A stretch of DNA of 64,000 bases, taken from assembly GCA_913065125.1 (NCBI GenBank), contig CAJYAG010000001.1, positions 186,001 to 250,000 on the forward strand, written 5' to 3'. The notes below the pieces were generated by a model that saw only the letters and a program-made list of their open reading frames with translations, was not told where the DNA came from and ran no database searches. The translations under genes and the position numbers were made by a program. Positions 2,535 to 42,915 of this stretch are shown in pieces (position 1 is the stretch's first letter; every line of letters starts with the position of its first letter). Origin of the DNA: an uncultured Flavobacteriaceae bacterium (lineage in GTDB: Bacteria; Bacteroidota; Bacteroidia; Flavobacteriales; Flavobacteriaceae).

Positions 2535-2539
2535 AATTC

Positions 2540-3610
2540 TTAATTTCTAAAAAATTTATAATCAATCTTGATTGAAAAGATATTTGAATACAGTGCATTT
2601 CCAACACTTCCAATATTTGTTAATGCATAATCTATATGAATTCCGTTGTACTTAAATCCAACGCCAAAATTTGGCTGTAAAGAGATTGATTTACTTCCGT
2701 CAAATTGAGTTGTGTTTTGAATATTTCCAATTCCGCCACGTAGATAAACCAAATCTGTATAATCTAATTCGAATCCAAATGTTGGGTCAATACTTACAAC
2801 GCTTGATGAAATAATGTCGTTAGTCTGCGCAAATCGCATGTTTAAATTAACTTCTGTTAATAGATGGAAATCTCTTGCTACTCTAAACTTACGTGCAACA
2901 CCGAGCTGTATTTTGGGGTTTGTAATTTCTGAAGTTTCTGGTAACTCTTGATTTTGACCAGGAATCGAATTTTTAATTTTATCAAATTCAGTTTCGTTAA
3001 TATTCCAAGTATTATATGTTGTTGTGATATCACGAACCATTAATCCAAATTTCCAATCGTTTCTTTCGAACTGAATTCCGGCATCAAATCCAAATCCCCA
3101 CGAAGAAGCAAAATCGCCAATAACTCTTCTAAGAACTTTGGCATTTACACCAAAATACATGTCTTTAAAAATTAAGTTTCTAGCGTAGGAAAACGTAAAA
3201 GCATAATCAGCAGCAGAAAATAAACTAATTCTATTAAAATTAATATTTCCCTGACTGTCAATAAGTTCAGTGGTGTTTAGAATATCGTCAACTCCAAATC
3301 TTATGATAGAAATTCCAACTGCACTTTCATCATCAATTGGTAATGCAATTGCGGCAAAATTATAATTTGCCATTCCTGCAAAATAAGAAGCATGCATTAA
3401 AGAACCTTCGTAGTCTTCTAAATTTACTAAACCTGCAGGATTCCAATAAATTGCATTGACATCATTACTTGTTGCAACAACCGATTTACTCATACCTAAA
3501 GCTCTAGCATCAACACCAATATTTAAAAATTCGTTCGAATAATTTCTAAAGGTTTGCGCAGTTATTTGAAATGCACAGAAAAAGAACAGAAAGAAATAAT
3601 GTTTTTTCAA
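2540..3610 (-). CDS. PorV/PorQ family outer-membrane beta-barrel protein
   Basis: 356 aa with a cleavable signal peptide (ends ITAQ) and repeated amphipathic strands of a FadL-like barrel, ending in an aromatic residue near the C-terminus (KIDYKFFRN). The motif LNIGVDARALGMSKSVVAT, followed by NAIYWNPAGL, is the hallmark of the PorV/PorQ family. PorV is an outer-membrane component of the type IX secretion system, and PorQ works at the attachment/shuttle stage. Which subfamily this copy belongs to is not clear from sequence alone, and no other T9SS gene is in the window. First gene of a probable two-gene operon with the DUF4105 protein. A weak -7-like box (GATATTTG on the minus strand, 3637-3644) lies upstream. 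Confidence 0.8.
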   Translation of the reverse strand: MKKHYFFLFFFCAFQITAQTFRNYSNEFLNIGVDARALGMSKSVVATSNDVNAIYWNPAGLVNLEDYEGSLMHASYFAGMANYNFAAIALPIDDESAVGISIIRFGVDDILNTTELIDSQGNINFNRISLFSAADYAFTFSYARNLIFKDMYFGVNAKVLRRVIGDFASSWGFGFDAGIQFERNDWKFGLMVRDITTTYNTWNINETEFDKIKNSIPGQNQELPETSEITNPKIQLGVARKFRVARDFHLLTEVNLNMRFAQTNDIISSSVVSIDPTFGFELDYTDLVYLRGGIGNIQNTTQFDGSKSISLQPNFGVGFKYNGIHIDYALTNIGSVGNALYSNIFSIKIDYKFFRN

Positions 3611-3667
3611 AATAAACGGTTGCTTGTTACAAATATCTTAAATCCTATTGTAATAACCATTGTTAAC

Positions 3668-4663
3668 TTAAGATATTGTTTGTGTAACTAGGATTTGAAT
3701 ATTCTCATCGATAAAACGACTAATTCGTTTTTCTAGCCATCTACTTTCTTGTTGTTTAAATGTTGATATAAATCCAACATGACCACCATATTTTGTGGCT
3801 TCAAGAAAAAAAAATTCTGAATCTCCTGCTTCTTCAAACGGAAAACATTCAGGACTTAAAAACGAGTCATCTTTGGCATTTATTAATAAGGTAGGCTTAT
3901 TTATTTTTGATAAATAAGGCTTTGAACTTGCTTTTTGCCAATAATCTTCTGGACTTTCGAAACCAAAAACAGGAACCGTATATAAATGTTCTAAGTGTTT
4001 AAATCGTTTTGCTTTAAAAAGTTTGTCTTTATCTAATCTAAAATCTGGAAATTTATATGATTTTTCTAGTATTTTTAATCGGATGGTTTTTAAAAATTCT
4101 TCGAGATATAGTTTGTTTTTTAATTTGTCCATTTCGCGTTCTGAACTTGTAATGTCGATTGGAACTGAAGTTGCAATGGCACCTTTTATTTTTGGAGAAA
4201 GTTTTTCTGAATATTCTCCCATATACTTCAACGTTAAATTTCCGCCTAAACTAAAACCGATAATAAGGATGTTTTCATAGTAATAATTATTTAATAAATG
4301 CTTAACAACAAAATCTACATCTTCTGTTTTTCCGCTGTGATAGGTTCCTAACAACCAATTGTCTTCTCCGCTACAACCACGCAAATTAAATGATACAGTA
4401 TCAATTCCTTTACCATTTAACTCGTTTGCTGTAGAAAGTATGTATTTAGATTCTGAGCTTCCTTCTAAACCATGAATTAAAATTGCCAAGGTATTTGAGT
4501 TTACTTTAGAAAAATCTAAGTCGATAAAATCGTTGTCCCATGTAAAAACTCTTTTGCGAGAATAAGCACAGGTTTCTTTCATAAATAATGGACGATACAT
4601 TGTGTTAAAATGGCCATTTTTAAATGGTAGAGAAGGATTATAATCCGAAGTAAATAGCGGCAT
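3668..4663 (-). CDS. YheT-family alpha/beta hydrolase
   Basis: 331 aa alpha/beta-hydrolase. The oxyanion-side motif IHGLEGSSES lies at residues 64-73, the nucleophile elbow GFSLGGN has Ser138, and the C-terminal GGHVGF supplies the catalytic His near residue 295. The start FNTMYRPLFMK and the overall length fit the YheT/ABHD1-3 family of carboxylesterase or thioesterase-like proteins, whose substrates are poorly defined. No signal peptide, so probably cytoplasmic. It is divergent from pssA. A near-consensus minus-strand -7 box (CAtcTTTG, 4692-4699) could drive it. Confidence 0.87.
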   Translation of the reverse strand: MPLFTSDYNPSLPFKNGHFNTMYRPLFMKETCAYSRKRVFTWDNDFIDLDFSKVNSNTLAILIHGLEGSSESKYILSTANELNGKGIDTVSFNLRGCSGEDNWLLGTYHSGKTEDVDFVVKHLLNNYYYENILIIGFSLGGNLTLKYMGEYSEKLSPKIKGAIATSVPIDITSSEREMDKLKNKLYLEEFLKTIRLKILEKSYKFPDFRLDKDKLFKAKRFKHLEHLYTVPVFGFESPEDYWQKASSKPYLSKINKPTLLINAKDDSFLSPECFPFEEAGDSEFFFLEATKYGGHVGFISTFKQQESRWLEKRISRFIDENIQILVTQTIS

Positions 4664-4716
4664 AGAACTTTTTTAAAACAGTATTTGAATACAAAGATGA
4701 TAAAAAAAGAAGTAAA

Positions 4717-4750
4717 TTGAAACAAGAGCAAACGGATTTCCTTATTTTTG
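4717..4750 (+). promoter_or_regulatory. Putative pssA promoter
   Basis: TTG at 4717-4719 and TAttTTTG at 4743-4750 match the Bacteroidota primary sigma factor pattern (-33 TTG, -7 TAnnTTTG), 25 nt before the pssA ATG. Spacing is 23 nt, at the long end of the usual range. Confidence 0.5.
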
Positions 4751-4774
4751 CTTTACACAAATCCGAAAATCAAG

Positions 4775-5518
4775 ATGAAAAAACACATTCCGAATATCAT
4801 AACTTTAGGAAATTTATTATTTGGGACTATTGCGGCAATTGCTGCTGTAAATGGAAATTTTGAAATTGCAGCTTTGTCTGTTACAATTGGAATTCTACTT
4901 GATTTTTTTGATGGTTTTTTTGCACGAATCTTAAATGTTTCTGGAGAATTAGGAAAACAATTAGATTCTTTAGCAGATATGGTTACAAGTGGAGTAGTGC
5001 CTGGAATTGTAATGTACACATTGTTACAAGAAAACGCATTGAATTTGTTTGAAAGAAAAGCAGATACTTTACATATTGCTTCTTTTAGCACTGGATATTT
5101 ACCTTATTTTGGTTTGTTATTAACCTTGGCAGCTTGTTATCGTTTGGCAAATTTTAATATTGATGAACGCCAATCTGATTCTTTTATAGGAATGCCAACT
5201 CCGGCAATGAGTTTGTTTGTACTTTCATTCCCGTTAATTCCGATTTATTCTGACAATCAATTTTTTATTGATTTGGTACAGAACAATTATTTTTTGATTG
5301 GAATTACGTTAGTATTAAGTTTTTTAATGAATGCGGAAATTCCGTTATTCTCTTTAAAGTTTAAGAATTATGGAATAAAAGAAAATCTTTTGAAATACGT
5401 TTTTTTAGTAGCTTCTATAGGTATGATTTTAACCTTGGAAGTTATTTCTATTCCGTTAATAATTATTTTATATGTGCTACTTTCTGTGGGAAGTAATTTG
5501 AATAAGAAAAAAGCCTAG
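4775..5518 (+). CDS. pssA: CDP-diacylglycerol--serine O-phosphatidyltransferase
   Basis: 247 aa integral membrane enzyme making phosphatidylserine from CDP-diacylglycerol and serine, the precursor of phosphatidylethanolamine. The CDP-alcohol phosphotransferase motif DGx2ARx8Gx3Dx3D is present: [29 protein letters not shown]. About seven hydrophobic helices follow, typical of type II bacterial PssA. The ATG at 4775 ([13 protein letters not shown]) is preferred over the in-frame TTG at 4748, because that TTG lies inside the -7 box and the family starts with this motif. The 3' end overlaps the convergent lptB gene by 4 nt. Confidence 0.95.
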
Positions 5519-6249
5519 AATTTTCTCTTTTTTAATTCGAAATCTTTACCAAGATATACTTTACGTACAGTTTCATCAGCAGCCAATTCTTCTGGAGTTC
5601 CGCTTTTAAGAATACTTCCTTGATACATTAAAAAAGTTTTATCGGTAATAGCTAATGTTGCTTGTACATCATGATCGGTAATTAAAATACCAATATTTCT
5701 GTTTTTAAGTTGCGCAACAATACTTTGAATATCTTCTACCGCAATTGGATCAACTCCAGCAAAAGGCTCATCTAATAAAATAAATTTTGGATCAGAAGCT
5801 AAACATCGCGCAATTTCTGTTCTTCTTCGTTCTCCACCAGATAATAATTCTCCTTTATTTTTACGAACATGACCTAAACTAAATTCTTCAATTAAAGATT
5901 CTAGTTTTTCTTTGCGTTCTTTTTTTGTTCTATCCGTAAATTCCAATACAGACATAATGTTTTCTTCTACAGATAACTTTCTAAATACAGATGCTTCTTG
6001 CGCTAAATAACCAATTCCTTTTTGAGCACGTTTGTACATCGGATCGTTGGTAATTTCTTCATCATCTAAATAAATATGACCAGCGTTGGGTTTTATCATG
6101 CCAACAATCATGTAAAAAGAAGTGGTTTTTCCTGCGCCATTTGGACCTAATAAACCAACGATTTCTCCTTGAGATACTTCCAAAGAAATTCCTTGAACCA
6201 CCTTTCGGCTTCCATAAATTTTTTCAATGTTATCTGCTCTTAATATCAT
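5515..6249 (-). CDS. lptB: LPS export ABC transporter ATP-binding protein
   Basis: 244 aa ABC ATPase that powers LptFG extraction of lipopolysaccharide from the inner membrane. Walker [10 protein letters not shown] is at residues 35-43, the signature is LSGGERRR, and Walker B is [25 protein letters not shown] is the LptB-type H-loop region. Length and ends match the family. It is the last gene of a minus-strand run kdsD-tatC-AhpD-like-lptB. Kdo isomerase and LptB together point to LPS assembly. Its stop overlaps the stop of pssA. Confidence 0.95.
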
Positions 6250-6292
6250 GTATCAAATATACAAATTGAGATTTAGTGAACTCTTAAATTAA

Positions 6293-6643
6293 TTATAAAT
6301 CGTTTTGCTCTAAAGCTTCCCAGAATTCGTATGCTCTACGTAAATGTGGAATTACAATTGTTCCGCCAACCAATGTTGCGATAGACATTGTTTCCATCAT
6401 TTCTTCTTTTGTAACCCCTTTTTTATAGGCTGTTTCTAAATGATATGCAATACAATCATCACAACGTAAAACAGCAGATGCAACCAAGCCTAACAATTCT
6501 TTGGTTTTTACAGGTAAATGACCTTCTGTAAAAGCGTTGGTATCTAAATTAAAAATTCTCTTAATAACTTTATTGTCATTGCTTAAGAGTTTATCGTTCA
6601 TTTTTTGACGATATGTGTTAAATTCTTCAACTTTATTTGGCAT
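6293..6643 (-). CDS. Carboxymuconolactone decarboxylase / AhpD-like protein
   Basis: 116 aa with the AhpD-like fold signature: CDDCIAYH, where Cys61, Cys64 and His68 form the redox CxxC...H motif, followed by KKGVTKEEMMETMSIA. The family includes alkylhydroperoxidase-type thiol reductants and gamma-carboxymuconolactone decarboxylases. The CxxC favours a redox role, but the substrate is unknown. Its start overlaps the 3' end of tatC by 11 nt, so it is translationally coupled. Confidence 0.88.
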   Translation of the reverse strand: MPNKVEEFNTYRQKMNDKLLSNDNKVIKRIFNLDTNAFTEGHLPVKTKELLGLVASAVLRCDDCIAYHLETAYKKGVTKEEMMETMSIATLVGGTIVIPHLRRAYEFWEALEQNDL

Positions 6644-7445
6644 TTTTTAATTGTTTTTTTAAAACAAAACCAGAAATATAAATACTGATTTCATATAAAA
6701 TTAATATTGGAATTGAAACAATTATTTGACTCGCAACATCTGGAGGTGTAATAATTGCGGATAAAATTAATACTAACACCAACGCATGTTTTCTGTATTT
6801 TCTTAAAAATTCTGGAGTAACCAATCCTAATTTTGATAAGAAATAAATGACAACGGGTAATTCAAAAACTAAAGAAATACCCAACATGGTATTGGTAAAT
6901 AAACTGATATAAGAATCTAATGTGAAATTATTAACGATGTTATCACTAATTTGATATCCGTAGAAAAACGAAACAGACATTGGCATGATCACATAATAAC
7001 TAAAAGCAACTCCAATAAAGAAAAGAAACGACGCTATAAATAAAAATCCTCTCGATTTTCTTCTTTCTGTTTTGTGTAATCCAGGAGCAATAAAACGCCA
7101 CATTTCCCATAATAAATAAGGAAATGCAAGGATAACGCCTAAAATTATTGACACCCAAAGAGAACTCATTAATTGCTGAGTTAACGATAAAGCTTGCAGT
7201 TTACTTGGAATTTCAACGGCACAAAAACTACTATCTATGCCAATGCTTCCAAAAACATGACAGAAAAACCGATAGGTAACAAAATCTGAATGTGTATGTG
7301 CAATAATAAAATCATTATACACTTCTTCTCTAAAAACAAAAAGCACAATTGCAAAAACAAATATTACAGCAAAACTTCTAACTAAATGCCAGCGTAATTC
7401 TTCTAGATGTCCTAAAAAAGACATTTCTTTTTGTTCATAACTCAT
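6633..7445 (-). CDS. tatC: Sec-independent protein translocase TatC
   Basis: 270 aa, six hydrophobic helices. The family start motif MSFLGHLEELRWHLVRS and the conserved FRLPLLWEMWRFIAPGLHKTERR-like region (here SIILGVILAFPYLLWEMWRF) mark TatC, the twin-arginine signal receptor of the inner membrane. A loop of roughly 40 residues with two Cys lies between TM1 and TM2, as is common in Bacteroidota. No tatA/B is in the window. It starts directly after the kdsD stop (no gap) and overlaps the downstream AhpD-like gene. Confidence 0.96.
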   Translation of the reverse strand: MSYEQKEMSFLGHLEELRWHLVRSFAVIFVFAIVLFVFREEVYNDFIIAHTHSDFVTYRFFCHVFGSIGIDSSFCAVEIPSKLQALSLTQQLMSSLWVSIILGVILAFPYLLWEMWRFIAPGLHKTERRKSRGFLFIASFLFFIGVAFSYYVIMPMSVSFFYGYQISDNIVNNFTLDSYISLFTNTMLGISLVFELPVVIYFLSKLGLVTPEFLRKYRKHALVLVLILSAIITPPDVASQIIVSIPILILYEISIYISGFVLKKQLKNAK

Positions 7446-8414
7446 TTAAAAAATACCTTCTTTAATTAAATCGTGTAAATGCACAACACCTAAATAATCA
7501 CTTGTGTCGTTTGTTACTAAAATTTGTGTGATATCGTTGGCTTCTAATGTTTCTAAGGCATCAATTGCCATCGCATTTATAGAAATTGTTTTTGGGTTTT
7601 TAGACATAATATCATTTGCTGATAGCGAATTAATTTCTGTAGATTTACTCAGCATTCTACGAATATCTCCGTCGGTTATAATTCCAACAATTTTATCATT
7701 TTCAACAACAGCAGTAACGCCTAATCTTTTTTCTGTGATTTCTACAATTACTTTAGTAATACTACTGTCTTTATTAACTTTCGGAATTTCATTATTCTTT
7801 ATCAAATCAGAAACACGCAAATACAATCGTTTTCCTAACGCTCCACCTGGATGATATTTAGCAAAATCATTACTAGAAAAGCCTTTTAATTTCAATAAAC
7901 AAACAGCCAAAGCATCTCCCATAACTAATTGTGCGGTTGTGCTTGTAGTCGGAGCTAAATTATTTGGACAGGCTTCTTTTTCTACAAATGTATTTAAAGC
8001 GAAATCTGCATTAGTTCCTAAGAAAGAATCTACATTACCTGTAATTGCAATGATTTTATTTCCATAATTCTGAATTAACGGAACTAGAACTTTAATTTCT
8101 GGTGTATTACCACTTTTAGAAATACAAATTACAACATCATCATTTTGTATGGCTCCTAAATCGCCATGAATTGCATCAGCAGCATGCATAAAAATTGCTG
8201 GAGTTCCGGTAGAATTAAAGGTGGCAACAATCTTAGTAGCAATATTAGCGCTTTTACCAATTCCAGTTACTATAACTCTTCCTTTAGAGTTTAAGATATA
8301 TTTAACCGATGCTTCAAAATCGGCATCAATAAAATTTACTAAATTAGCAATAGCATTACTTTCTATAAGAATAGTTTCTTTTGCTGTAGTTATGATAGAA
8401 TTAAGGTCTTTCAA
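7446..8414 (-). CDS. kdsD: KpsF/GutQ family D-arabinose 5-phosphate isomerase
   Basis: 322 aa enzyme interconverting ribulose 5-phosphate and arabinose 5-phosphate, the first step of Kdo synthesis for LPS. N-terminal SIS domain (GRVIVTGIGKSANIATK, HAADAIHGDLGAI, ISKSGNTPEIK), then HPGGALGKRL, then two CBS domains (SDLI...ITDGDIRRML and DIMSKNPKTI...LHDLIKEG). First gene of the operon leading to tatC and lptB. A perfect TAaaTTTG box on the minus strand (8491-8498) lies about 77 nt upstream. Confidence 0.95.
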   Translation of the reverse strand: MKDLNSIITTAKETILIESNAIANLVNFIDADFEASVKYILNSKGRVIVTGIGKSANIATKIVATFNSTGTPAIFMHAADAIHGDLGAIQNDDVVICISKSGNTPEIKVLVPLIQNYGNKIIAITGNVDSFLGTNADFALNTFVEKEACPNNLAPTTSTTAQLVMGDALAVCLLKLKGFSSNDFAKYHPGGALGKRLYLRVSDLIKNNEIPKVNKDSSITKVIVEITEKRLGVTAVVENDKIVGIITDGDIRRMLSKSTEINSLSANDIMSKNPKTISINAMAIDALETLEANDITQILVTNDTSDYLGVVHLHDLIKEGIF

Positions 8415-8490
8415 CGTTTTATAATTTTAGTAGTAAAAAAAAAAGTTATATCTTTAAAATATTGTAGAAAACACTTTTAATTTGCTTCTA

Positions 8491-8498
8491 CAAATTTA
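8491..8498 (-). promoter_or_regulatory. Putative -7 box for kdsD operon
   Basis: The minus strand reads TAAATTTG, a match to TAnnTTTG, in the divergent recQ/kdsD spacer. No clear TTG was found at the expected upstream distance. Confidence 0.4.
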
Positions 8499-8575
8499 CT
8501 ATAAATAATGATAGACCCAAACCAAAACTTGGTTTTTAAACAGACACTAATAAATACCCAGATTGATTGATTGAT

Positions 8576-10771
8576 ATGAGTGATGAAATTGATTTATATG
8601 TACCGTTAAAAAAGTTTTTCGGATTCAATAAGTTCAAAGGTTTACAAGAAGAAGTTATTAAAAGTATTTTACGAAAGAAAGATACATTTGTAATAATGCC
8701 AACTGGAGGAGGAAAATCGTTGTGCTATCAATTACCAGCATTAATGAGTGAAGGAACAGCAATTGTTGTTTCTCCTTTGATTGCTTTGATGAAAAACCAA
8801 GTAGATGCAATTCGTGGTATCTCTGAACATAGAGGAATTGCTCACGTTTTAAATTCTTCATTAAATAAAACGGAAGTAGCTCAAGTTAAAAGTGATATTG
8901 AAAGCGGAATCACAAAATTATTATACGTTGCTCCAGAATCTTTAATCAAAGAAGAATATGTAGCTTTTTTAAGAACTCAAAAAATTTCTTTTGTTGCAAT
9001 TGATGAAGCACATTGTATTTCTGAATGGGGTCACGATTTTAGACCAGAATATAGAAATCTTAGAACAATCATCAAGCAAATTGATAATGTTCCTGTAATT
9101 GGTTTAACCGCCACAGCTACAGAAAAAGTACAAGAAGATATTTTAAAAACATTAGGAATTTCTGACGCTAAAACGTTTAAAGCTTCCTTTAATAGACCTA
9201 ATTTATTTTATGAAGTACGACCAAAAACAAAAGATGTTGATAAAGATATTATAAGGTTTGTAAAACAACGTATTGGTAAATCAGGAATCATCTATTGTTT
9301 AAGTAGAAAAAAAGTAGAAGAAATTGCACAGGTATTGCAGGTAAACGGAATTAAAGCTGTTCCGTATCATGCAGGACTAGATGCAAAAACAAGAGTAAAA
9401 CATCAAGACATGTTTTTGATGGAAGATTGTGATGTAGTTGTAGCAACGATTGCATTCGGAATGGGAATCGATAAACCTGATGTACGTTTTGTAATTCATC
9501 ATGATATTCCTAAAAGTTTAGAAAGTTATTATCAAGAAACGGGTAGAGCTGGTAGAGATGGAGGAGAAGGTTACTGTTTGGCATTTTATGCATATAAAGA
9601 TATAGAAAAACTAGAGAAATTTATGGCAAGTAAACCTGTTGCAGAACAGGAAATTGGTCATGCTTTGTTACAAGAAGTAGTAGGTTATGCAGAAACTTCT
9701 ATGAATAGAAGAAAATATATTTTGCACTATTTTGGAGAAGAGTTTGATGAAGTAAATGGATTAGGAGCAGAGTTGGATGATAACACAAAAAATCCGAAGA
9801 AAAAACACGAAGCGAAAGAGGAAGTTGTAAAACTACTTTCTGTAGTGAGAGATACGAAAGAAAAATACAAAGCAAAAGATATAGTTAGTACAATAATTGG
9901 TAAAGAAAATGCCATGCTAACATCTCATAGAACACACCGTCAGCCTTTTTTTGGAATTGGAAAAAACAAAGAAAACACATATTGGAAAGCGTTGATTAGA
10001 CAGGTTCTAGTTGCTGGATATTTGCGTAAAGAAATTGAGCAATACGGCGTTATAAAAATAACAAAAGAAGGGTTGGATTTTATTGATGCTCCTACATCAT
10101 TTATGATGACGGAAGATCATACATACACTAGCGACAACGATAATTCTATCATTACAAATACCAAAGGAAATGCTGGTGGAGTAGATGATAAACTAATGGC
10201 AATGTTAAAGGATTTACGTAAAAACATAGCAAAGAAACTAGGTGTTCCGCCTTTTGCAGTTTTTCAAGATCCATCTTTGGATGATATGGCGTTAAAATAT
10301 CCTATTTCTTTAGAGGATTTAGCAAATGTTCATGGAGTCGGAGAAGGAAAAGCACGTAAATATGGCGCTGAATTTATAAAACTAATTACAAAATATGTTG
10401 ATGAAAATGATATTTTAAGACCCGATGATTTAGTGGTAAAAAGTACTGGTGTAAATTCAGGTTTAAAATTATATATCATTCAGAACACAGATAGAAAATT
10501 GCCTTTGATTGATATTGCAAAATCAAAAGGATTGAGCATGGAAGAATTGATTAAAGAAATGGAAGCAATTATCTTTTCTGGGACCAAATTAAACATCAAT
10601 TATAGCTTAGACGATTTATTAGATGAAGAACAGCAAGAAGAGATTTTTGACTACTTTATGGAAGCTGAATCTGATAAGATTCAAGAAGCTTTAGATGAAT
10701 TTGATGGCGATTATGATGAAGAAGAACTTCGATTAATGCGAATTAAATTTATAAATGAAGTCGCTAATTGA
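8576..10771 (+). CDS. recQ: ATP-dependent DNA helicase RecQ
   Basis: 731 aa 3'-5' DNA helicase. Walker A MPTGGGKSLCYQ begins at residue 41 and the DEAH box is at 143-146 within the FVAIDEAHCISEWGHDFRPEY region. Helicase C-terminal motifs CDVVVATIAFGMGIDKPDVRFVIH and QETGRAGRDG, an RQC/winged-helix region, and a C-terminal HRDC domain (KNIAKKLGVPPFAVF, LANVHGVGEGKARKYG) follow. The acidic tail is typical of flavobacterial RecQ. The ATG at 8576 (MSDEIDLYVPLKK) is chosen over an in-frame TTG at 8567 because homologues start MSxEIDL. It is divergent from kdsD. Confidence 0.95.
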   Translation: MSDEIDLYVPLKKFFGFNKFKGLQEEVIKSILRKKDTFVIMPTGGGKSLCYQLPALMSEGTAIVVSPLIALMKNQVDAIRGISEHRGIAHVLNSSLNKTEVAQVKSDIESGITKLLYVAPESLIKEEYVAFLRTQKISFVAIDEAHCISEWGHDFRPEYRNLRTIIKQIDNVPVIGLTATATEKVQEDILKTLGISDAKTFKASFNRPNLFYEVRPKTKDVDKDIIRFVKQRIGKSGIIYCLSRKKVEEIAQVLQVNGIKAVPYHAGLDAKTRVKHQDMFLMEDCDVVVATIAFGMGIDKPDVRFVIHHDIPKSLESYYQETGRAGRDGGEGYCLAFYAYKDIEKLEKFMASKPVAEQEIGHALLQEVVGYAETSMNRRKYILHYFGEEFDEVNGLGAELDDNTKNPKKKHEAKEEVVKLLSVVRDTKEKYKAKDIVSTIIGKENAMLTSHRTHRQPFFGIGKNKENTYWKALIRQVLVAGYLRKEIEQYGVIKITKEGLDFIDAPTSFMMTEDHTYTSDNDNSIITNTKGNAGGVDDKLMAMLKDLRKNIAKKLGVPPFAVFQDPSLDDMALKYPISLEDLANVHGVGEGKARKYGAEFIKLITKYVDENDILRPDDLVVKSTGVNSGLKLYIIQNTDRKLPLIDIAKSKGLSMEELIKEMEAIIFSGTKLNINYSLDDLLDEEQQEEIFDYFMEAESDKIQEALDEFDGDYDEEELRLMRIKFINEVAN

Positions 10772-35298: not shown

Positions 35299-35333
35299 AA
35301 AAAGCACTAGTTTAATATTCAACTAGTGCTTTT
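35299..35333 (-). terminator. Terminator of the papain/caspase operon
   Basis: Perfect 12-bp stem AAAGCACTAGTT (35301-35312) / AACTAGTGCTTT (35321-35332) with 8-nt loop. On the minus strand it is followed by a T run. Confidence 0.85.
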
Positions 35334-35352: not shown

Positions 35353-38300
35353 TTATTGCTTTTTAATAAAAATAAAATCACCACCTTCATCTCCGATTCC
35401 GTATATAGTTCCGTATTGTGGAGTATTTGGGCTGTTGTTCATTACTGGCTCTTCTATTTTATCAAATAATTGTCGCGCAGATAAATAATTACTGGTATTA
35501 GTTTCTAATCTATTTAGTAAGTATTTTAAGAACATACTTTTATTTGGAACCGTTTTTAATGTTCCACTTGTAATGGCTTTTCTACTTGTTAATTCGAATT
35601 TCTTTTGAATAGATTTTGGCGATTTTTCAAAAGAACGTGTTTTAAAAATGCTACCACTAAAACAAGCATCAGAAATTAATAAAGTGTGTTTAGATCTAAT
35701 CGATTTTAAGAAATCTACCACTTGTGAGTTGCTGATTAAATTTAGCTCATATTCCATATCTGCATCCGAAGGCAACCAATGCCCAATCTGACTAACTTCA
35801 TCATAAACACCATGACCCGCATAGAAAACTAACAAATTGTCTTTATTGGTAACTTTCTTTTTTAACTTGCTAAATTCTTTAATGATGTCATTTTCAGTCG
35901 GACTCTTATTTAGGATAACTACATTTTCTCTTTTAAAGCTGTATTTGTTGATCAAAACATTTCCTAAGTCTTGTGCATCTTTTGTAGGCAATCCACCCAA
36001 ATCTGTAATGGCTCCGTCACCATAATCACTAACACCAATTAAGAGCGCATAATATTCACCAAACCCTTTATTATCATTATTGTTGTTATTAACAATAATT
36101 ACATCGTCTTTAACATCGACTACATCTGGAGATTTTCTTTTAATTGTAAATGTTTTGGTTGATGATGCCTGTTTTAAATCAGTAGCTTTTACAATTAAGT
36201 CATTTGTACCAATTTTTAATGGAACGTTTGCAGTAAAAGTTCCGTCTTCTTTTACAGATGCATCTACACCATTAATTGTAATTTCGTAAATACCATCTTT
36301 ATCTGTAGCTTTTCCACGAACTAAAATCTTTTTAGTTTTTACAATTTTAAATCCACGTTCTACAACGGGCTCTGTAATTACAACTTCTGGCGGAGTATTA
36401 AAGCTTGATGATGGGTAGGTAACATTTAAATAATCGATAGATATTTCTTGTTTGTTATAAACGCTAAACCCAATATAATCGCCAAAAAATTTAGAATAAG
36501 GAGCTTCATTAACATATTGATCGTTGATGTAAATTCTCAATAAATTTTTTGTTTTGACAATTTTTATTTTATTTGGTTGATATGCTTGGGTATTTAAAGC
36601 AGCAGTTTCTGTCCAAGGAATTAATTTATTAGAAACATCGTTTTCTAGCTTTCTAAACAAATAACTACCTCCTTTAGATAAAAATAAATCGAATTCGTTT
36701 GTGTTATTTTGACGCCCAAAAACAAAAGCAATAGAACCGTCAGAAGCACTTGTAAGCCTTGTTAGTGATGTTTCTATAATAAAGTCTCTACTTGTATCTA
36801 TTCCTACCTTTTTACTGATAAATGCCCCACCTTTTTCATTGTTGCTTTTAAGGTATAATTTACCATTGTTAATTCTACTTTTTACGTTAGTGTCATCAGA
36901 TAAATTCCAACCATTTGTGTTGCTTGCAAAACTTTCGTTTAATGGAACTGTCAACGTGTTAGATGTAACAATTGTATTCTTTGATTTTTTTAGATATTTT
37001 ATGGTAATATTATCTACACCAATTTTTTGCTTGTTAAAAACCACATATCCTAATCGGTGTCCAAAAAAGGCTTCAAAATCAGATTGAGCCACAAAAGTAT
37101 TATTGACATAAAATTTGTATTGATCACTTTCTTTTCTAATCTTTAGCGTATTCAATGCTCCATTTCCGGTTTTTACAGCAGACGATTTTGTAAACTTTTT
37201 AATCAACTCTTCTTTGTCGTCAATAACACGGGCAATTTTATAGTAACCGTTTCCTGTGATGTAAAAGCGAAAACTATTTTTCCCTTCTTTTCCCCATTGA
37301 AAACCATAAGAAATGTTATTAACTCCACTAATTTTTTTAATTGCAGTTGTAATCTCAAAATCTCTAGAAGTATCTATAGTTTTAGGAATATTCACTGCCC
37401 AACCACCATTTTCTTTTAAATGTTCAAAATTATAATAGCTGTTTGAAACACTCATTATTGTAGTTCCACTTGAGTTAGTTGTAGGCCAGTTATTATTGTT
37501 ATTTGTAAAATAATCTGTCAATACATTTTCTCCGTTAGCAACAACTACGTTATCATTTTTATCATTTTGATTTATATATTTTATGTTTAAATCTTCTATT
37601 GCAATCTTTTGTTTGTTGTATACAACAAAACCAAAACGGTTTCCCATAAAAGGTTTGTGAGTGTATAGCGTTAAATACATATTGTTAACATAAAACTTTA
37701 TAAAACCTCTTTCTTTCTTTATTTTTAAAGTATTATAGGCATTATTTCCAGTTTTTATATAAGAAGATTTTGTCCAATCTTTAATTGCTGTAAATTTACC
37801 ATCAATATACTGGTCAACAGAATAAGAACCGTTAGCAGTTATGGTAAAAACAAATTGATTATTACCATCTTTTCTTCCAAAAACAAAACCATACCCATTA
37901 TTGCTGATTCCATCAATTTTTAAAATTCTAGATTCAATTTCAAAATCTTTATTGGTATCGATGTCAACTACTTTGGTACTAGACCAACCACCAGATGTTC
38001 GTTTATGATCAAAATAATATTTGCCATTACTAACCTCTAATTTTGCGCTAGAATCAGAAGATTCTGCCCAACTATTTTTATTTGAAGAAAAATCATCATT
38101 TAAAATTACACTACTGCTGGTTGTTGTTGTGGTAGTTATGTTGTCTTTGACAGTAACATTGCTTTGATTGATGTATTTTATTTTCAAATCATTTACAGCA
38201 ATCTTTTGATCATTATAAACAATAAAACCAAAACGATTTCCTGCAAAAGGTTTATGGGTGTATAATGTGAGATATCGATCGTTTACATAAAACTTAATAA

Positions 38301-39357
38301 AACCTCTTTCTTTTTTGATTTTTAAGGTATTGTAAGCATAATCACCAGTTTTGATATGTGCAGATTTTGTCCATTCTTTTAATGCAATATATTTTCCGTC
38401 TTTATATTGATCAATCGAGTAAGAACCATCTGCTGTGATTGTAAAAACAAATTGATTGTTTCCATCTTTTCTCCCAAAAACAAATCCGAAGCCATTGTTT
38501 TTAATCCCGCTAATTTTTAAAAATTGAGCTTCAATTTCAAAATCTTTATTGTCATCAATATCAACAACTTTTGTACTAGACCAACCACCAGAGGTTCTTT
38601 TGTGTTCAAAATAGTACCTGTTGTTTTTTACTTCTAAAACGGCATCACTTGTTGATGATTCTGCCCAATTGTTTTTATTTGAGGAAAAATTATCCTCTAA
38701 AATTATACTCCCATTTGTTGTGGTAGTGTTGGTTACAACAGTGCTTCCACTTAATTGTGTAGCTTTTATATAATCTATCGCAATTTTTTGTTTGTCGAAA
38801 ATATAAATGCCTAATCTATTGCCTGTAAAAGCGTTGTAGTCTTTACTCTCTAAAAATTGGTCATTTATATAAAAGGATATAGTACGGCCAACCTTTTTTA
38901 CTTTAAATTTATTGGTTGCATAAGTTCCTGTATTTATTGCGCTAGAAGTTTTCCAACCTTTATAGTTAACATATTCATCATTTCTCTTATCAGAAACTCT
39001 GTATTGATCATTACTCAAATAAAAATGAAAGGTATTTTTATCATCTTTATTACCAAACATAAAACCAAAAGCATGGTTTGCGTTATCAAAAGAAATTCTT
39101 TCTATAGATGTTTCAAGCTCAAAATCGCCATTTAAATTAATTTTAAGCTCTGGAGTTCTTACATTCCAATTTTTATCTTTTCTTTTATGTTCAAAATAAT
39201 ATTTTCCGTTTTTAACTATTAATTCTCGGGTAGTATTATTTCCTTCTGGCCAACCATTTGTACTAGAATACGTTTCGTTATAAATTACTTGTTGTGCCGA
39301 GACAATAAAAGTAAATGTTAGAAAGAAGAAAGCTAAGAATACGTGTTTAGTTTTCAT
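35353..39357 (-). CDS. Secreted caspase-family protein with five tandem beta-sandwich-like repeats
   Basis: 1334 aa. Signal peptide 1-21 (ends VSAQ). Five homologous repeats of about 182 residues at 21-203, 216-397, 416-597, 610-791 and 803-984, each with a W-containing start (NxW), a GF(x)FGRKD/N-like strand, an IKFYVN strand and a final KQKIAID strand. This resembles LamG/DUF1080-type concanavalin folds and may bind glycans. An Ig-like module at about 988-1075 is followed by an Asn/Asp-rich linker and a peptidase C14 (caspase) domain at about 1100-1334, with the dyad His1182 (FYAGHGVY) and Cys1232 (ISDACFSG). No type IX sorting domain is seen. It lies 8 nt downstream of a C1 peptidase gene and ends at a terminator. 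Substrate and role unknown. Confidence 0.9.
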   Translation of the reverse strand: MKTKHVFLAFFFLTFTFIVSAQQVIYNETYSSTNGWPEGNNTTRELIVKNGKYYFEHKRKDKNWNVRTPELKINLNGDFELETSIERISFDNANHAFGFMFGNKDDKNTFHFYLSNDQYRVSDKRNDEYVNYKGWKTSSAINTGTYATNKFKVKKVGRTISFYINDQFLESKDYNAFTGNRLGIYIFDKQKIAIDYIKATQLSGSTVVTNTTTTNGSIILEDNFSSNKNNWAESSTSDAVLEVKNNRYYFEHKRTSGGWSSTKVVDIDDNKDFEIEAQFLKISGIKNNGFGFVFGRKDGNNQFVFTITADGSYSIDQYKDGKYIALKEWTKSAHIKTGDYAYNTLKIKKERGFIKFYVNDRYLTLYTHKPFAGNRFGFIVYNDQKIAVNDLKIKYINQSNVTVKDNITTTTTTSSSVILNDDFSSNKNSWAESSDSSAKLEVSNGKYYFDHKRTSGGWSSTKVVDIDTNKDFEIESRILKIDGISNNGYGFVFGRKDGNNQFVFTITANGSYSVDQYIDGKFTAIKDWTKSSYIKTGNNAYNTLKIKKERGFIKFYVNNMYLTLYTHKPFMGNRFGFVVYNKQKIAIEDLNIKYINQNDKNDNVVVANGENVLTDYFTNNNNNWPTTNSSGTTIMSVSNSYYNFEHLKENGGWAVNIPKTIDTSRDFEITTAIKKISGVNNISYGFQWGKEGKNSFRFYITGNGYYKIARVIDDKEELIKKFTKSSAVKTGNGALNTLKIRKESDQYKFYVNNTFVAQSDFEAFFGHRLGYVVFNKQKIGVDNITIKYLKKSKNTIVTSNTLTVPLNESFASNTNGWNLSDDTNVKSRINNGKLYLKSNNEKGGAFISKKVGIDTSRDFIIETSLTRLTSASDGSIAFVFGRQNNTNEFDLFLSKGGSYLFRKLENDVSNKLIPWTETAALNTQAYQPNKIKIVKTKNLLRIYINDQYVNEAPYSKFFGDYIGFSVYNKQEISIDYLNVTYPSSSFNTPPEVVITEPVVERGFKIVKTKKILVRGKATDKDGIYEITINGVDASVKEDGTFTANVPLKIGTNDLIVKATDLKQASSTKTFTIKRKSPDVVDVKDDVIIVNNNNNDNKGFGEYYALLIGVSDYGDGAITDLGGLPTKDAQDLGNVLINKYSFKRENVVILNKSPTENDIIKEFSKLKKKVTNKDNLLVFYAGHGVYDEVSQIGHWLPSDADMEYELNLISNSQVVDFLKSIRSKHTLLISDACFSGSIFKTRSFEKSPKSIQKKFELTSRKAITSGTLKTVPNKSMFLKYLLNRLETNTSNYLSARQLFDKIEEPVMNNSPNTPQYGTIYGIGDEGGDFIFIKKQ
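36406..39297 (-). repeat. Five in-frame repeats of about 550 bp inside the caspase gene
   Basis: Units at 38749-39297, 38167-38712, 37567-38112, 36985-37530 and 36406-36951. Units 2 and 3 are much closer to each other than to the rest, with long identical stretches such as NTLKIKKERGFIKFYVN, indicating a recent duplication. Confidence 0.88.
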
Positions 39358-39365
39358 AATATTTT

Positions 39366-40832
39366 TTATTGGTGATTCATTTCTATAAAGATAGGTACAA
39401 CTTTAGCAGTTCTATTTGAAGATTTAGTTGTAAAAGCAATTTTATTACTATCAAATTTAATGTCAGATCCTTTATATATTTTAGATTGCAGTGCTTTTTT
39501 AACTCTAGAAACAAAATCTCCAGAACCATATCTTGTAGTACTTACAATTTTATCAATATCTAATTTTTCTTTGCTATATAAAACACAAAGTACATCTCTA
39601 CCTGGTTTTTCGTCAAACTCAATAAAATAGTCTTCGTTAGGCAATGCAATTTCGCTATTTATGTAGCTAAAATAATCGCTAAATTTTTCAAATGGATATA
39701 ATTTACTAACAGATTTATCAGCAGAACCATATCCAATTAAATAGACATAACCTTTTTGTTTGCTTTTTAAGTAAATTCTAAACTGAGTTCCAGAACCATA
39801 ACTTTTAGCAATGCTATAAGTTGTTTCTGATGCTTTTACAACATTAAAATTTCTTGAAGCTCCTTTTGCTAAAATAGGAGTCATGTTTTCACCGTTGCTT
39901 AACTTTAAAGTAAGTTCTCCTGCTAAAGTAGTTTCATTATTGGTTACCACCACGTCATCATTATCATCTGGAGAAACAATAACTTTAGGTTTTGGACTTT
40001 TATCAACTAAAACATAGGCTGTTTTTGTGTTCTTTTTAAAATCATCATACCGCACCCAAATATATCCGTTGTTTCCCCAGTTTGTTCCCCAAGAATTTAA
40101 CAACTCAAAAGAACCTCCATACTTATCATCATCATAACCAATAACAACCATTGCATGTCCGCCAGGTTTACTCGTATGAATTCCATTCCAAGCTCCCTTA
40201 GCTTTAAAAAAAGTAGAAGAAACTTGCATACCAATAACAACAGGATTTTTATTCGCGATTGCTTTTTTTACTTTTCCAACTAAATTAGAAGGGTTGTCCC
40301 ATTTTGCTAATCTTTCGTAAGTTAAAATTGTGTTTTGTTTTGCTTTTTGTAAACCGTATGTAGACGGACTTTTTACACAGTTTGTTTGATCGTAAGTGAA
40401 ATCTTTTAATGCTAATACACCGTATGTATTTAATAATTTCATTGCGTCAGCAATATATGATCCACGTTTACAATCATTATCTCCTTTAAATTTAATTAAG
40501 TTGTATACAAATGCAGGAGAAAATGTGTTTTGGTTGATTTTTGTAGTATTATTTGCCCAGCCATTTTTTATTGCATTTGCAATGGTTCTTGCTCCATAAC
40601 CACTTGCCCAACCAACACATGATGGTTGACGGCCTTGATTACCAGGAGTAGGAGAGTATGCCTTTATACTATAACTTCTTGGAACAGAGGTTACACTTCT
40701 TGTAATTAAAGGAACCGTTTCTGTAACATTTTCGTATTTTTCTTTGCTAAACTCTAATCCCGTTACAAATTCTTGTGCATAGAATGTTGTACTTAGTAGC
40801 GTTAAAAACACAATTAGTGAAAACTTTTTCAT
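39366..40832 (-). CDS. Secreted C1 (papain-fold) peptidase with C-terminal DUF4384 domain
   Basis: 488 aa. Signal peptide ends FYAQ. The papain-like domain at about 50-280 keeps the full catalytic set: Gln66 (GNQGRQ oxyanion), Cys72 (PSCVGWA), His226 (GGHAMVV), Asn246 (NSWGTNWG). After an Asp-rich linker (about 285-300) comes a DUF4384-like beta domain (about 305-420, FRIYLKSKQKGYVYLIGYG) and a basic tail. DUF4384 is often found with caspase-like proteins, so finding it on the papain gene next to a caspase gene supports a functional pair. Only 8 nt separates the two genes, with promoter upstream at 40857-40887. Confidence 0.88.
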   Translation of the reverse strand: MKKFSLIVFLTLLSTTFYAQEFVTGLEFSKEKYENVTETVPLITRSVTSVPRSYSIKAYSPTPGNQGRQPSCVGWASGYGARTIANAIKNGWANNTTKINQNTFSPAFVYNLIKFKGDNDCKRGSYIADAMKLLNTYGVLALKDFTYDQTNCVKSPSTYGLQKAKQNTILTYERLAKWDNPSNLVGKVKKAIANKNPVVIGMQVSSTFFKAKGAWNGIHTSKPGGHAMVVIGYDDDKYGGSFELLNSWGTNWGNNGYIWVRYDDFKKNTKTAYVLVDKSPKPKVIVSPDDNDDVVVTNNETTLAGELTLKLSNGENMTPILAKGASRNFNVVKASETTYSIAKSYGSGTQFRIYLKSKQKGYVYLIGYGSADKSVSKLYPFEKFSDYFSYINSEIALPNEDYFIEFDEKPGRDVLCVLYSKEKLDIDKIVSTTRYGSGDFVSRVKKALQSKIYKGSDIKFDSNKIAFTTKSSNRTAKVVPIFIEMNHQ

Positions 40833-40856
40833 GATGTTTGTTTTTAGGTTATTCTA

Positions 40857-40887
40857 CAAAAATGAGGGATTTGAGTAGAAAAAACAA
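40857..40887 (-). promoter_or_regulatory. Promoter of the papain/caspase operon
   Basis: On the minus strand: TTG (40885-40887), 20-nt spacer, then CATTTTTG (40857-40864), one mismatch from TAnnTTTG. The start codon is 24 nt further on. It separates this operon from the upstream DUF3857 gene. Confidence 0.5.
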
Positions 40888-40956: not shown

Positions 40957-42915
40957 TTATTTGATTTTGGCTAAAGTAATCATAGTAGATTGAGCTTTAA
41001 CAATTTGATGAAAGAACTCTTTTAAAGCAAAATATTCTTGATTTGTATATGCAACTTTGTTGAGTTGAAATTTATAAAAGATGGAAATTTTAGCATTTAG
41101 TTTCTTTATATTAAAAATAAAACTACCACCATTATTGGGTAAAGAAAAAGCTCTGCTTTTTGGCAATTCTCCAATAGAATAATTCTCTGGTAAATGAATA
41201 CTTGCTCTATAAATGTAGTTTCTTTTATAACCAAAATTAACAGGGTATAAGCGCTCTGTTAGTTTAAATGGGTTCGTTTGTGCTTTCTCATGAAAAAAGG
41301 GATTGAGATATATTTTATCTTGTAAACCCTCATTGATTGCCTCAAAATTAAAGTTAAAAGTTTGTGTAATTTGATTGCTATTTCTTTCCAATCCAGAAAC
41401 CTTATAGTCATTTACTTCTAAGCTATTGTTAGCTTCATATTTCTCCAAATAATTTTCTTGACTAGTAGAATTTAATTCAGACTTTAAATTATAGGCGTCA
41501 TAACCAGAATTAAAGACTCTTAACAAACCTTTTATTTCTCCATCTTCTGAAATAGTTACACTGAGGTTTATTTTTTCATTTGATTCATATTTAGGAGCTA
41601 ACGATTTCCAATAGCTTCCCTTTTTAAAATCCATTACACGAACATTGCCATTTAATGTAGAAAATGGAGTAAGACCAAAAGTTAATTGTTTGTTAGTTGC
41701 ATCTAGAAAATATTCTTCTTCATCTATTTTTAAGAGTACAATTACATAATTAAAATCTGTAATTACAGGATATATTTTAGTTGGTAAACCATTGCTTCTG
41801 GTAGACAATAACGCAATTTTGACATCTAAATCTGCTGCTTTTAAAGCATTAAACAAAGAAATGTTTATGTCTGCAAGTGTACCAACTTTATCATTAAAAG
41901 ATTTTTTTGTGTCAATTTTACTATACGAAAAACTTTTACCATTGTTTGTATAATGGTTCTGTATAAAATAATAAATGTTTTTTGCTTTTTCTAAGGTATT
42001 CTTTTCGGAAATTAATTCTTGTGGTAAATTCTTTTTAAAGAAATTAGATTTTCTTAATTCTGAACCAAAATAATCTCCAGATTTAAATCTTTTATCTGTT
42101 GATTTCCATGTATCTGTATATCTTATTTTACTTCCACTTGCTGATGTAAAGGATTCTAATTCAAATGTAACTCTAGAAATAAAATTCTTCTTACTAGTCA
42201 TATATCCTTCTTCTTTAAAAGCAGGTATGTGGTTCATTCCCAATGATAAAACCGTACATCCGCCTTGAGTTAGTCCAGGAATATTTACACATCTTTTAAT
42301 TACCGAAGGATTATTTTTATCTAACTTTAAAAAACCTCTTAAACCCACATTGTACATGTAATTCCCTAAGATTGCCGATTCATATTCGCTTTTAACTTTA
42401 GGAATATCAGATTGAAAATACCAATCTTCTAACCCTTGAAAATAAGGAGTTGTATAGGTATAAGAATATTCTATTACAGAACCTACCTTAATGTCTGGTA
42501 AGGTAAATGTTAAGGTGGTCCAATTTTCAGTTTCTTTATTTTTAAAAATATCTTTTTCTAATACATTTTTTTTTTGGATGGAGTTTGCAACTATATTATA
42601 AGTAATCGCTTTGATATTGTCTACAGATTCATTTTTATAAAAAGGAATTTGAACTATCCCTTTGTCAAAACCTTCTTTTTTTAGTATTTTGATTCTGTAA
42701 TAATAGTTGGTACTTAAATTGTGGTCTTTTGCTGGATTCATAAATGTATTCCCTTGCTCGTACAATACAACAGCAACTGCTGTAGAATCTTTGTCGTAAA
42801 CGGTCATTTTTAATTCCTCTAAAGTAGCCTGTCCCATTTTTACTGACTTAGATCTTTGAGAAAAAGAAAAAGTCGTGATTAATAAAAAAACAATCAATAA
42901 AAAAACTTTTTTCAT
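40957..42915 (-). CDS. DUF3857 / transglutaminase-like secreted protein
   Basis: 652 aa. Signal peptide (MKKVFLLIVFLLITTFSFSQ), N-terminal DUF3857 beta domain (about 60-260), a transglutaminase-like core (about 300-400) and a C-terminal beta domain. In the core the usual catalytic Cys position reads GTLADINISLFNAL (Leu/Thr instead of Cys) and the expected His strand reads DFNYVIVLLKID, so it is predicted to lack transglutaminase activity; a structural or binding role is more likely. It follows the DnaQ-like gene by 3 nt and so probably ends that long operon. Confidence 0.86.
   Translation of the reverse strand: MKKVFLLIVFLLITTFSFSQRSKSVKMGQATLEELKMTVYDKDSTAVAVVLYEQGNTFMNPAKDHNLSTNYYYRIKILKKEGFDKGIVQIPFYKNESVDNIKAITYNIVANSIQKKNVLEKDIFKNKETENWTTLTFTLPDIKVGSVIEYSYTYTTPYFQGLEDWYFQSDIPKVKSEYESAILGNYMYNVGLRGFLKLDKNNPSVIKRCVNIPGLTQGGCTVLSLGMNHIPAFKEEGYMTSKKNFISRVTFELESFTSASGSKIRYTDTWKSTDKRFKSGDYFGSELRKSNFFKKNLPQELISEKNTLEKAKNIYYFIQNHYTNNGKSFSYSKIDTKKSFNDKVGTLADINISLFNALKAADLDVKIALLSTRSNGLPTKIYPVITDFNYVIVLLKIDEEEYFLDATNKQLTFGLTPFSTLNGNVRVMDFKKGSYWKSLAPKYESNEKINLSVTISEDGEIKGLLRVFNSGYDAYNLKSELNSTSQENYLEKYEANNSLEVNDYKVSGLERNSNQITQTFNFNFEAINEGLQDKIYLNPFFHEKAQTNPFKLTERLYPVNFGYKRNYIYRASIHLPENYSIGELPKSRAFSLPNNGGSFIFNIKKLNAKISIFYKFQLNKVAYTNQEYFALKEFFHQIVKAQSTMITLAKIK

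Follow-up and report, generated by a model that had tools for sequence, protein, structure and literature searches.

Why would a bacterium encode a papain-type and a caspase-type enzyme side by side, and if one of them acts on the other, in which direction? These questions are raised by a 64,000-nucleotide (nt) stretch of DNA from an uncultured Flavobacteriaceae bacterium (hereafter the window; contig CAJYAG010000001.1, positions 186,001 to 250,000), in which the two genes lie on the minus strand, papain first, separated by a gap of 8 nt (39358-39365). A sequence-only reading of the window had described two adjoining cysteine peptidases with intact catalytic residues, and both open reading frames (ORFs) and their Pfam domains were recovered. 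Our results suggest that many Bacteroidota and some treponemes keep a secreted papain-type enzyme beside a secreted caspase-type enzyme, as a possible two-enzyme switch outside the cell membrane. The direct support for this consists of the intact active sites, the conserved pairing of the genes, the varied accessory modules of the caspases, the conserved Arg motifs, and the location of one of these (Arg45) where the papain model has its pro/mature junction; export, cleavage and its direction, the signal, and the biological role of the pair are what we infer.

Conservation of the gene pair

The sequence-only reading had treated the two genes as a unit, and their co-occurrence in relatives proved far from rare. 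Papain matches are present in 34/146 genomes of the window's genus, taken here to be Polaribacter, and 29 of these were retained after leaving out four distant short papains (33-37% identity) and one remnant of 97 residues (G309). The caspase gene is adjacent to the papain gene, on the same contig and in the same order and strand, in 27/29 of these genomes. They are the window, 25 fetched loci (L086-L110) and G311, whose papain is divided between two contigs. In the remaining two (G271 and G325) the papain reaches a contig end and caspase sequence is found on another contig. The caspase of G275 is broken and its papain open. In G309, G312 and G243 (loci L115, L117 and L118), remnants of the pair are found where the intact pair stands in other genomes, with the exonuclease-domain gene on one side and the ion-channel gene on the other, which points to repeated loss of the pair.

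Relatives outside the genus were drawn from a set of named genomes (32 loci), a phylum scan (296 genomes), a class scan (395 genomes) and a family set. Caspases adjoining a papain were found in Lutibacter, several Bacteroidales/Bacteroidetes metagenome-assembled genomes (MAGs), two Saprospira grandis genomes, a Bacteroidaceae MAG and two Treponema MAGs, in either gene order and, in one Treponema MAG, with one gene in between. Among full-length papains of this subfamily (pro-region, C1 and DUF4384) from the phylum and class scans outside the genus, 11/14 have a Peptidase_C14 (C14) ORF within 6 kb, versus 0/41 in a sister papain subfamily (Fisher p = 3e-9), where L209 contributes two papains to the 11, L258 is counted as full-length without a caspase and may belong to the sister subfamily, and some fetched stretches stop at contig ends, so that a caspase there could go unseen. 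Matches below 100 bits were left out of the pairing counts, and short papain rows of the same scans, four near a caspase and 13 not, stand outside this comparison. The sister subfamily (class A; L211, L214-L218, L237 and L240-L274 except L258) was defined by a profile-match start at 13 or later. In the seven class A papain-DUF4384 proteins whose N-termini were read, these are Gly-rich and then hydrophobic, versus a plain signal peptide, and the seven are probably membrane-anchored.

The partner caspases differ in architecture between lineages, comprising CBM66-like, MORN, WD40, DUF7477 plus TPR, TPR, WG, Ig-only, C14 plus PEGA, and C14 plus TPR forms. At some loci a single papain is accompanied by several caspase ORFs, three at L153 and four at L205; at the latter (73-10351) the caspase ORFs, of 690-736 amino acids (aa), stand in tandem after the papain, and the three that were scanned differ N-terminally. 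Papain and caspase trees are correlated over 26 lineages (Mantel r 0.39, 0/5000 permutations as high), a correlation that could come from species relatedness alone. They also disagree in places: in these trees, drawn without support values, the papains from the two treponemes form a sister pair and the corresponding caspases do not.

Active sites, junction and expected specificity

The papain ORF (39366..40832, 488 aa, from the ORF call and Pfam; all features of the pair are on the minus strand) has Pfam matches to Peptidase_C1 (residues 116-263, 1.5e-13) and DUF4384 (residues 345-422, 2.2e-7; 39567..39800). By eye, residues 1-19 (MKKFSLIVFLTLLSTTFYA; 40776..40832) resemble a signal peptide. 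The C1 catalytic domain, as delimited by Pfam, alignment and model, spans residues 50-280 (39993..40685), and its Q66, C72, H226 and N246 are intact in 55/55 aligned relatives. The structural model has a mean confidence (predicted local distance difference test, pLDDT) of 89.9, and its papain fold is recognized with Z 23.7-28.5 across the 50 structural matches listed, the best of which is xylellain (3ois; Z 28.5), also recovered by profile search (E 1.4e-23).

The second ORF (35353..39357, from the ORF call and Pfam) encodes a 1334-aa protein with signal peptide-like residues 1-21 (39295..39357, read by eye), five repeats, an Ig-like domain and a terminal caspase domain. Pfam places Glucodextran_B at residues 990-1075 (7.1e-12; 36133..36390) and Peptidase_C14 at residues 1103-1306 (3.6e-14; 35440..36051), the latter also recognized by profile and fold; with 53.5 bits against a cut-off of 21.4, the protein belongs to C14, and it is the only C14 match in its genome. 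The dyad of His1182 (35812..35814) and Cys1232 (35662..35664) is kept in 27/27 aligned orthologues, and since the papain set likewise holds in 55/55, the residue numbering given in the sequence-only reading was correct. Both N-termini look like signal peptides with ...A-Q ends, and export of both proteins is predicted from this resemblance. As to type IX secretion, neither protein has a C-terminal sorting-domain match at E 0.01 in NCBIfam, a library that presumably includes the type IX tail models.

The repeats (residues 24-985; 36403..39288) were delimited by repeat alignment and are 182-199 aa long (n=5), repeats 2 and 3 being 75% identical and the remaining pairs 27-44%. A Pfam scan of the repeats gave no family above its cut-off. 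The modelled fragment containing repeat 5 matches the fold of CBM66, a carbohydrate-binding module, and the size and fold of the match suggest that it belongs to the repeat itself. Clostridial neurotoxin lectin-like domains also appear in the fold list, with a query TM of ~0.2-0.25 and a root-mean-square deviation of ~17-20, and were taken as sharing the jelly-roll only. The orthologous caspases (n=27) carry five repeats in 8 cases, four in 17 and three in 2. The same repeats occur in two genus members in 820-830-aa proteins lacking the terminal caspase (L119 9074-11536, L120 8641-11133), and in another genome of the family (L143 8343-10418) a window-type repeat is joined, by eye, to an OmpA-like C-terminus.

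Pro-forms of papains and xylellain align with the papain model from residues 5-25, and the enzyme, which has a short segment at its N-terminus where a propeptide would be, may be made as a zymogen. The predicted pro-segment covers residues 20-45 (40698..40775), the part also covered by papain pro-forms in the alignment, and ends in T44-R45. In many rows of the structural comparison, model residue 50 is matched by the first residue of a mature plant enzyme (papain, actinidin, ficin or chymopapain), which puts Arg45 near the usual pro/mature junction; alignment and fold comparison make T44-R45/S46-V47 (40692..40703), five residues ahead of the usual mature N-terminus, a putative activation site. 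Arg45 sits in an ordered helix of the model and is present in 25/25 Polaribacter/Lutibacter rows.

A profile of the caspase searched against PDB sequences at E 0.01 gave five matches, every one a metacaspase, and the fold ranking of the model is led by metacaspase 4 (Z 22.5) and MALT1 (Z 21.6). Asp1230, two residues before the catalytic Cys (D-x-C), is invariant in 27/27 rows, and we take Asp211 of TbMC2 to be placed likewise two residues ahead of its Cys. Asp211 is among the residues that hold basic substrates, according to PMC6426788. Orthocaspases are reported as cutting after basic residues. The D-x-C Asp and the nearest folds point to a resemblance to Arg/Lys-specific metacaspases and MALT1, and so to a predicted preference for a basic P1.

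The motif R-[SNG]-[FV] is found at four places in the window pair, as R45-S-V and R327-N-F in the papain and as R1001-G-F and R1241-S-F in the caspase. The second papain motif, S-R327-N-F-N-V-V-K-A (39831..39857; from model and motif search), has residues 328-334 at pLDDT <50, so that R327 borders a low-confidence stretch; R1001 and R1241 lie inside such stretches. E-R1001-G-F-K-I-V-K-T (36334..36360; 1001-1003 at pLDDT <50) is near the start of the Ig domain, and its R-G-F is kept in 27/27 rows. T1240-R1241-S1242-F1243 (35629..35640; 1240-1253 at pLDDT <50) belongs to the loop following the catalytic Cys, with Arg1241 nine residues past Cys1232, presumably where caspases are usually cut, and this Arg is also kept in 27/27.

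Direction of the proposed relay

The sequence-only reading had proposed a proteolytic relay. A relay of two proteases fits the evidence best, and the direction from papain to caspase that had been put forward is probably reversed: the Arg motif at the papain pro/mature junction and the proximity of the caspase to Arg/Lys-specific enzymes make the direction from caspase to papain the more likely one. We favour, tentatively and at somewhat short of even chances, a zymogen module of two proteases outside the inner membrane, in which a sensor-linked caspase matures itself and the papain. Both proteins would be exported across the inner membrane, and the repeat array, glycan-binding-like here and replaced by other modules elsewhere, would serve as anchor or sensor. 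The caspase, being of metacaspase/paracaspase type, would be expected to cut after Arg or Lys; upon a signal it would cut itself in the post-Cys loop at TR1241/SF, possibly also near the Ig domain at R1001/GF, and would cut the papain at TR45/SV, taking off the 26-residue pro-segment. The freed active papain would then carry out broader degradation, for which surface remodelling, nutrition, quality control and killing are candidate roles.

A wider version of this reading, which we hold with more doubt, is that of a widespread caspase-papain cascade outside the membrane, in which a constant papain-DUF4384 executioner would be coupled to caspase initiators with sensor repeats exchanged between lineages, a lineage-matched motif in both non-homologous partners would set cleavage or docking, and a caspase-free sister clade would use the motif QDVV together with other secreted partners. 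Lineage-matched motifs were observed at several loci. At L127 the papain has TRNLVVEDDVPG and the caspase ARNLVVEDDVPS, and the own partner ranks 1 of 2157 ORFs. The papain inserts of L127-L129 and L210 are TRNLVV[ED]{2}-like (TRNLVVEDDV/ARNLVVEDDV in papain/caspase), and the WD40-type caspases of these loci contain ARNLVVEDDV, NRNLLVEDDV, TRNLYVDDD, TRNLLVEDDE and SRNLVVEDD; the partner ranks 3rd at L128, 5th at L129 and 9th at L210. At L205 the papain has TRGLTVV and the caspases SRGLKV[VI] in two of four, with QRGLKV and NRGLKI in the others. The window partner ranks 19th (31 ties) and the Lutibacter partner 53rd.

The QDVV clade consists of papain-DUF4384 loci that have no caspase nearby (L125, L126, L158-L162, L169, L170 and L206). 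QDVV is present in the papain insert at 10/10 of these loci and at the junction in six, and at L126, L160 and L161 it stands right after the signal peptides of both neighbours, one small and lipoprotein-like and the other of ~600 aa. Its background frequency is 2 in 33,118 aa.

A number of observations weigh against maturation of the papain by the caspase. Pairing is not universal, as a caspase lies near 13/23 full-length papains of the named set, three of the 13 being genus loci, and near 3/5 of the family set; of the ten unpaired named-set papains, seven are in the QDVV clade. Counts of n/n within the genus are not independent, because relatives have common ancestry. The Arg motif is likewise not universal: it is found in 17/25 caspase-paired papains outside the genus, by a rule that also accepts Lys, and in three of eight unpaired papains examined (L150, L151 and L155, unpaired on their contigs), and [ST]R[SDN] is missing from four QDVV-clade and four class A papains in the alignment. 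For mature Der p 1 and Der f 1 the match to the model starts at residue 36, not 50, and in the caspase fold ranking human caspases and legumains follow close behind (Z 19-20). The occurrence of Arg in both partners of 26 pairs (both 13, papain only 4, caspase only 4, neither 5) is not significantly associated (Fisher p = 0.19); this tally was made by eye and leaves out the close relatives L128, L129 and L168 and also L165, L172 and L231, with L226 represented by its third C14 ORF because the nearest one showed no D-x-C. A test of residues flanking the Arg, devised post hoc, gave p = 0.0035 over 12 lineages; a repeat specified beforehand yielded a single usable new pair. The post hoc test left out the same-genus L091, L097 and L105 as well as L153, L154, L157, L127, L209a, L210, L212 and L213, in which one side has no Arg by the rule applied; L166 was entered with Lys, and for L205 the nearest caspase was taken. 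A comparison of 5-mers between papain pro-region and caspase loop was mixed, the own loop being unmatched elsewhere in the caspase in 7/32 rows; the window is not among these and its pair is unremarkable, as 47% of other caspase stretches do as well. Finally, the papain could itself cut the Arg-motif sites, and the occurrence of QDVV without Arg in a caspase-free clade fits docking better than cleavage at Arg. In a related test, the longest ungapped segment common to a papain and its own caspase was mostly inside the null. The exceptions were L152, for which 0.3% of null values were as high, L127 (0.8%), L105 (1.9%) and the window (1.3%), whose segment is a low-complexity linker.

The motifs may thus be read as serving docking or strand swapping, the papain insert in the DUF4384 region mimicking a loop of the caspase Ig domain and letting the two proteins bind each other or a common site; we consider this rather unlikely, though a live alternative. 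It would account for QDVV, and a table in PMC8283722 lists DUF4384 as accessory domain in 23 orthocaspases of cyanobacteria. The window insert peptide also resembles caspase peptides: C14 proteins make up 9 of the top 25 among all ORFs (83/2157 overall) and 21 of the top 25 among ORFs of at least 450 aa (76/514 overall), own orthologues included in both cases, and 10 of the top 25 in the latter length class outside Polaribacter/Lutibacter (43/437; p 3e-5). Against this stand the weak enrichment outside these genera over all lengths (4 of 25, p 5e-3) and the lack of any for the L127 and L210 peptides among ORFs of at least 450 aa (5 of 25, p 0.3); all these p values are descriptive only, because the peptides were picked after looking. 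Moreover, zymogens are normally cut at the pro/mature junction and in the post-Cys loop, which is where Arg45 and Arg1241 are located.

That the papain comes first, activating itself and then cutting the caspase in its loops, we regard as unlikely, though likewise as a live alternative. Classic papain zymogens are activated autocatalytically, the same type of motif is present in both proteins, and the motif that the QDVV-clade papain has in common with its neighbours at three loci indicates that the papain may be the common motif reader. Papain-type enzymes, however, mostly read a hydrophobic P2, whereas 25/25 Polaribacter/Lutibacter rows have Thr or Ser in this position, followed by Arg at P1, and it is the caspase that is nearest to Arg/Lys-specific enzymes. 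Two independent housekeeping proteases that merely share an operon, each with a task in periplasmic quality control or in nutrition, would agree with the constant housekeeping locus in the genus and with patchy presence and decay (papain in 29/146 genus genomes, three remnants at the site), but are distinctly improbable given that pairing recurs in other families in either order and with different caspase types and that both partners have motifs in common.

Known systems, transcription signals and neighbours

If maturation of the papain by a sensor-linked caspase is correct, the pair would represent bacterial initiator-executioner proteolysis outside the cytoplasmic membrane. To our knowledge, few bacterial caspase homologues have a known natural substrate. 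A protease that is conserved as a neighbour and has a predicted cut site where pro-segment and mature enzyme meet would be a concrete one, and this candidate is open to testing with genes from relatives in culture, for instance Lutibacter oricola DSM 24956.

The window caspase shares its catalytic domain, His-Cys dyad and D-x-C with prokaryotic orthocaspases/metacaspases (C14) and differs from known orthocaspases in its signal peptide-like start and its adjoining C1 papain. Caspases with MORN, WD40 or TPR and fusions with DUF4384 are already known: WD40, TPR and DUF4384 are accessory modules of cyanobacterial orthocaspases in PMC8283722, and a MORN-metacaspase from Baltic Sea metagenomes is described in PMC4933709. 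For the pairing with a papain we found no account in the open-access literature, most subscription papers and preprints being outside the search. The papain resembles xylellain and C1A papain zymogens in fold and in the short N-terminal segment in propeptide place, and unlike these it adds DUF4384, a junction Arg and a caspase partner. The sole NCBIfam match of the window caspase at E 0.01 is caspase_w_EACC1 (1.3e-19), from the EACC1-associated caspases of bacterial conflict systems; it is not a member of these (NF047832), because it scores 70.5 bits against a cut-off of 140, and its signal peptide-like N-terminus is a further difference. Fragipain-fragilysin is like the proposed pair in that one protease activates another secreted enzyme, and unlike it in the enzyme families involved; we take family C11 to belong to clan CD, and this system presumably is no adjacent pair with sensor repeats. 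Activation of fragilysin by a C11 protease in Bacteroides fragilis is described in PMC6964027.

The pair had further been described as delimited by a promoter and a terminator. The terminator was borne out, with a perfect 13-bp stem 3' of the caspase gene (35300..35333) that was matched or exceeded in 1/500 shuffles of the intergenic stretch; a generic terminator scan found 2 versus 2.0 by chance, and thus no excess. The promoter (40857..40887; TTG-N20-CATTTTTG, which we take to be the Bacteroidota -33/-7 consensus) is weak, because a match with one mismatch, as here, turns up in 17% of shuffles.

Nothing points to the defence role that had been suggested, since the neighbourhood in the genus is one of constant housekeeping genes and a PADLOC search matched only a model named 'caspase'. 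Directly upstream of the pair, a DUF3857/transglutaminase-like gene (40957-42915) is matched at 13/25 genus loci; it was rejected as a third member because the other 12 of these loci (L086-L110) lack a match next to the pair. Other neighbours of the window pair include miaA, an ion-channel gene and an exonuclease-domain gene. The exonuclease-domain gene is upstream at 25/25 fetched genus loci, and the ion-channel gene is downstream within the fetched stretch at 15/25, not always adjoining the caspase.

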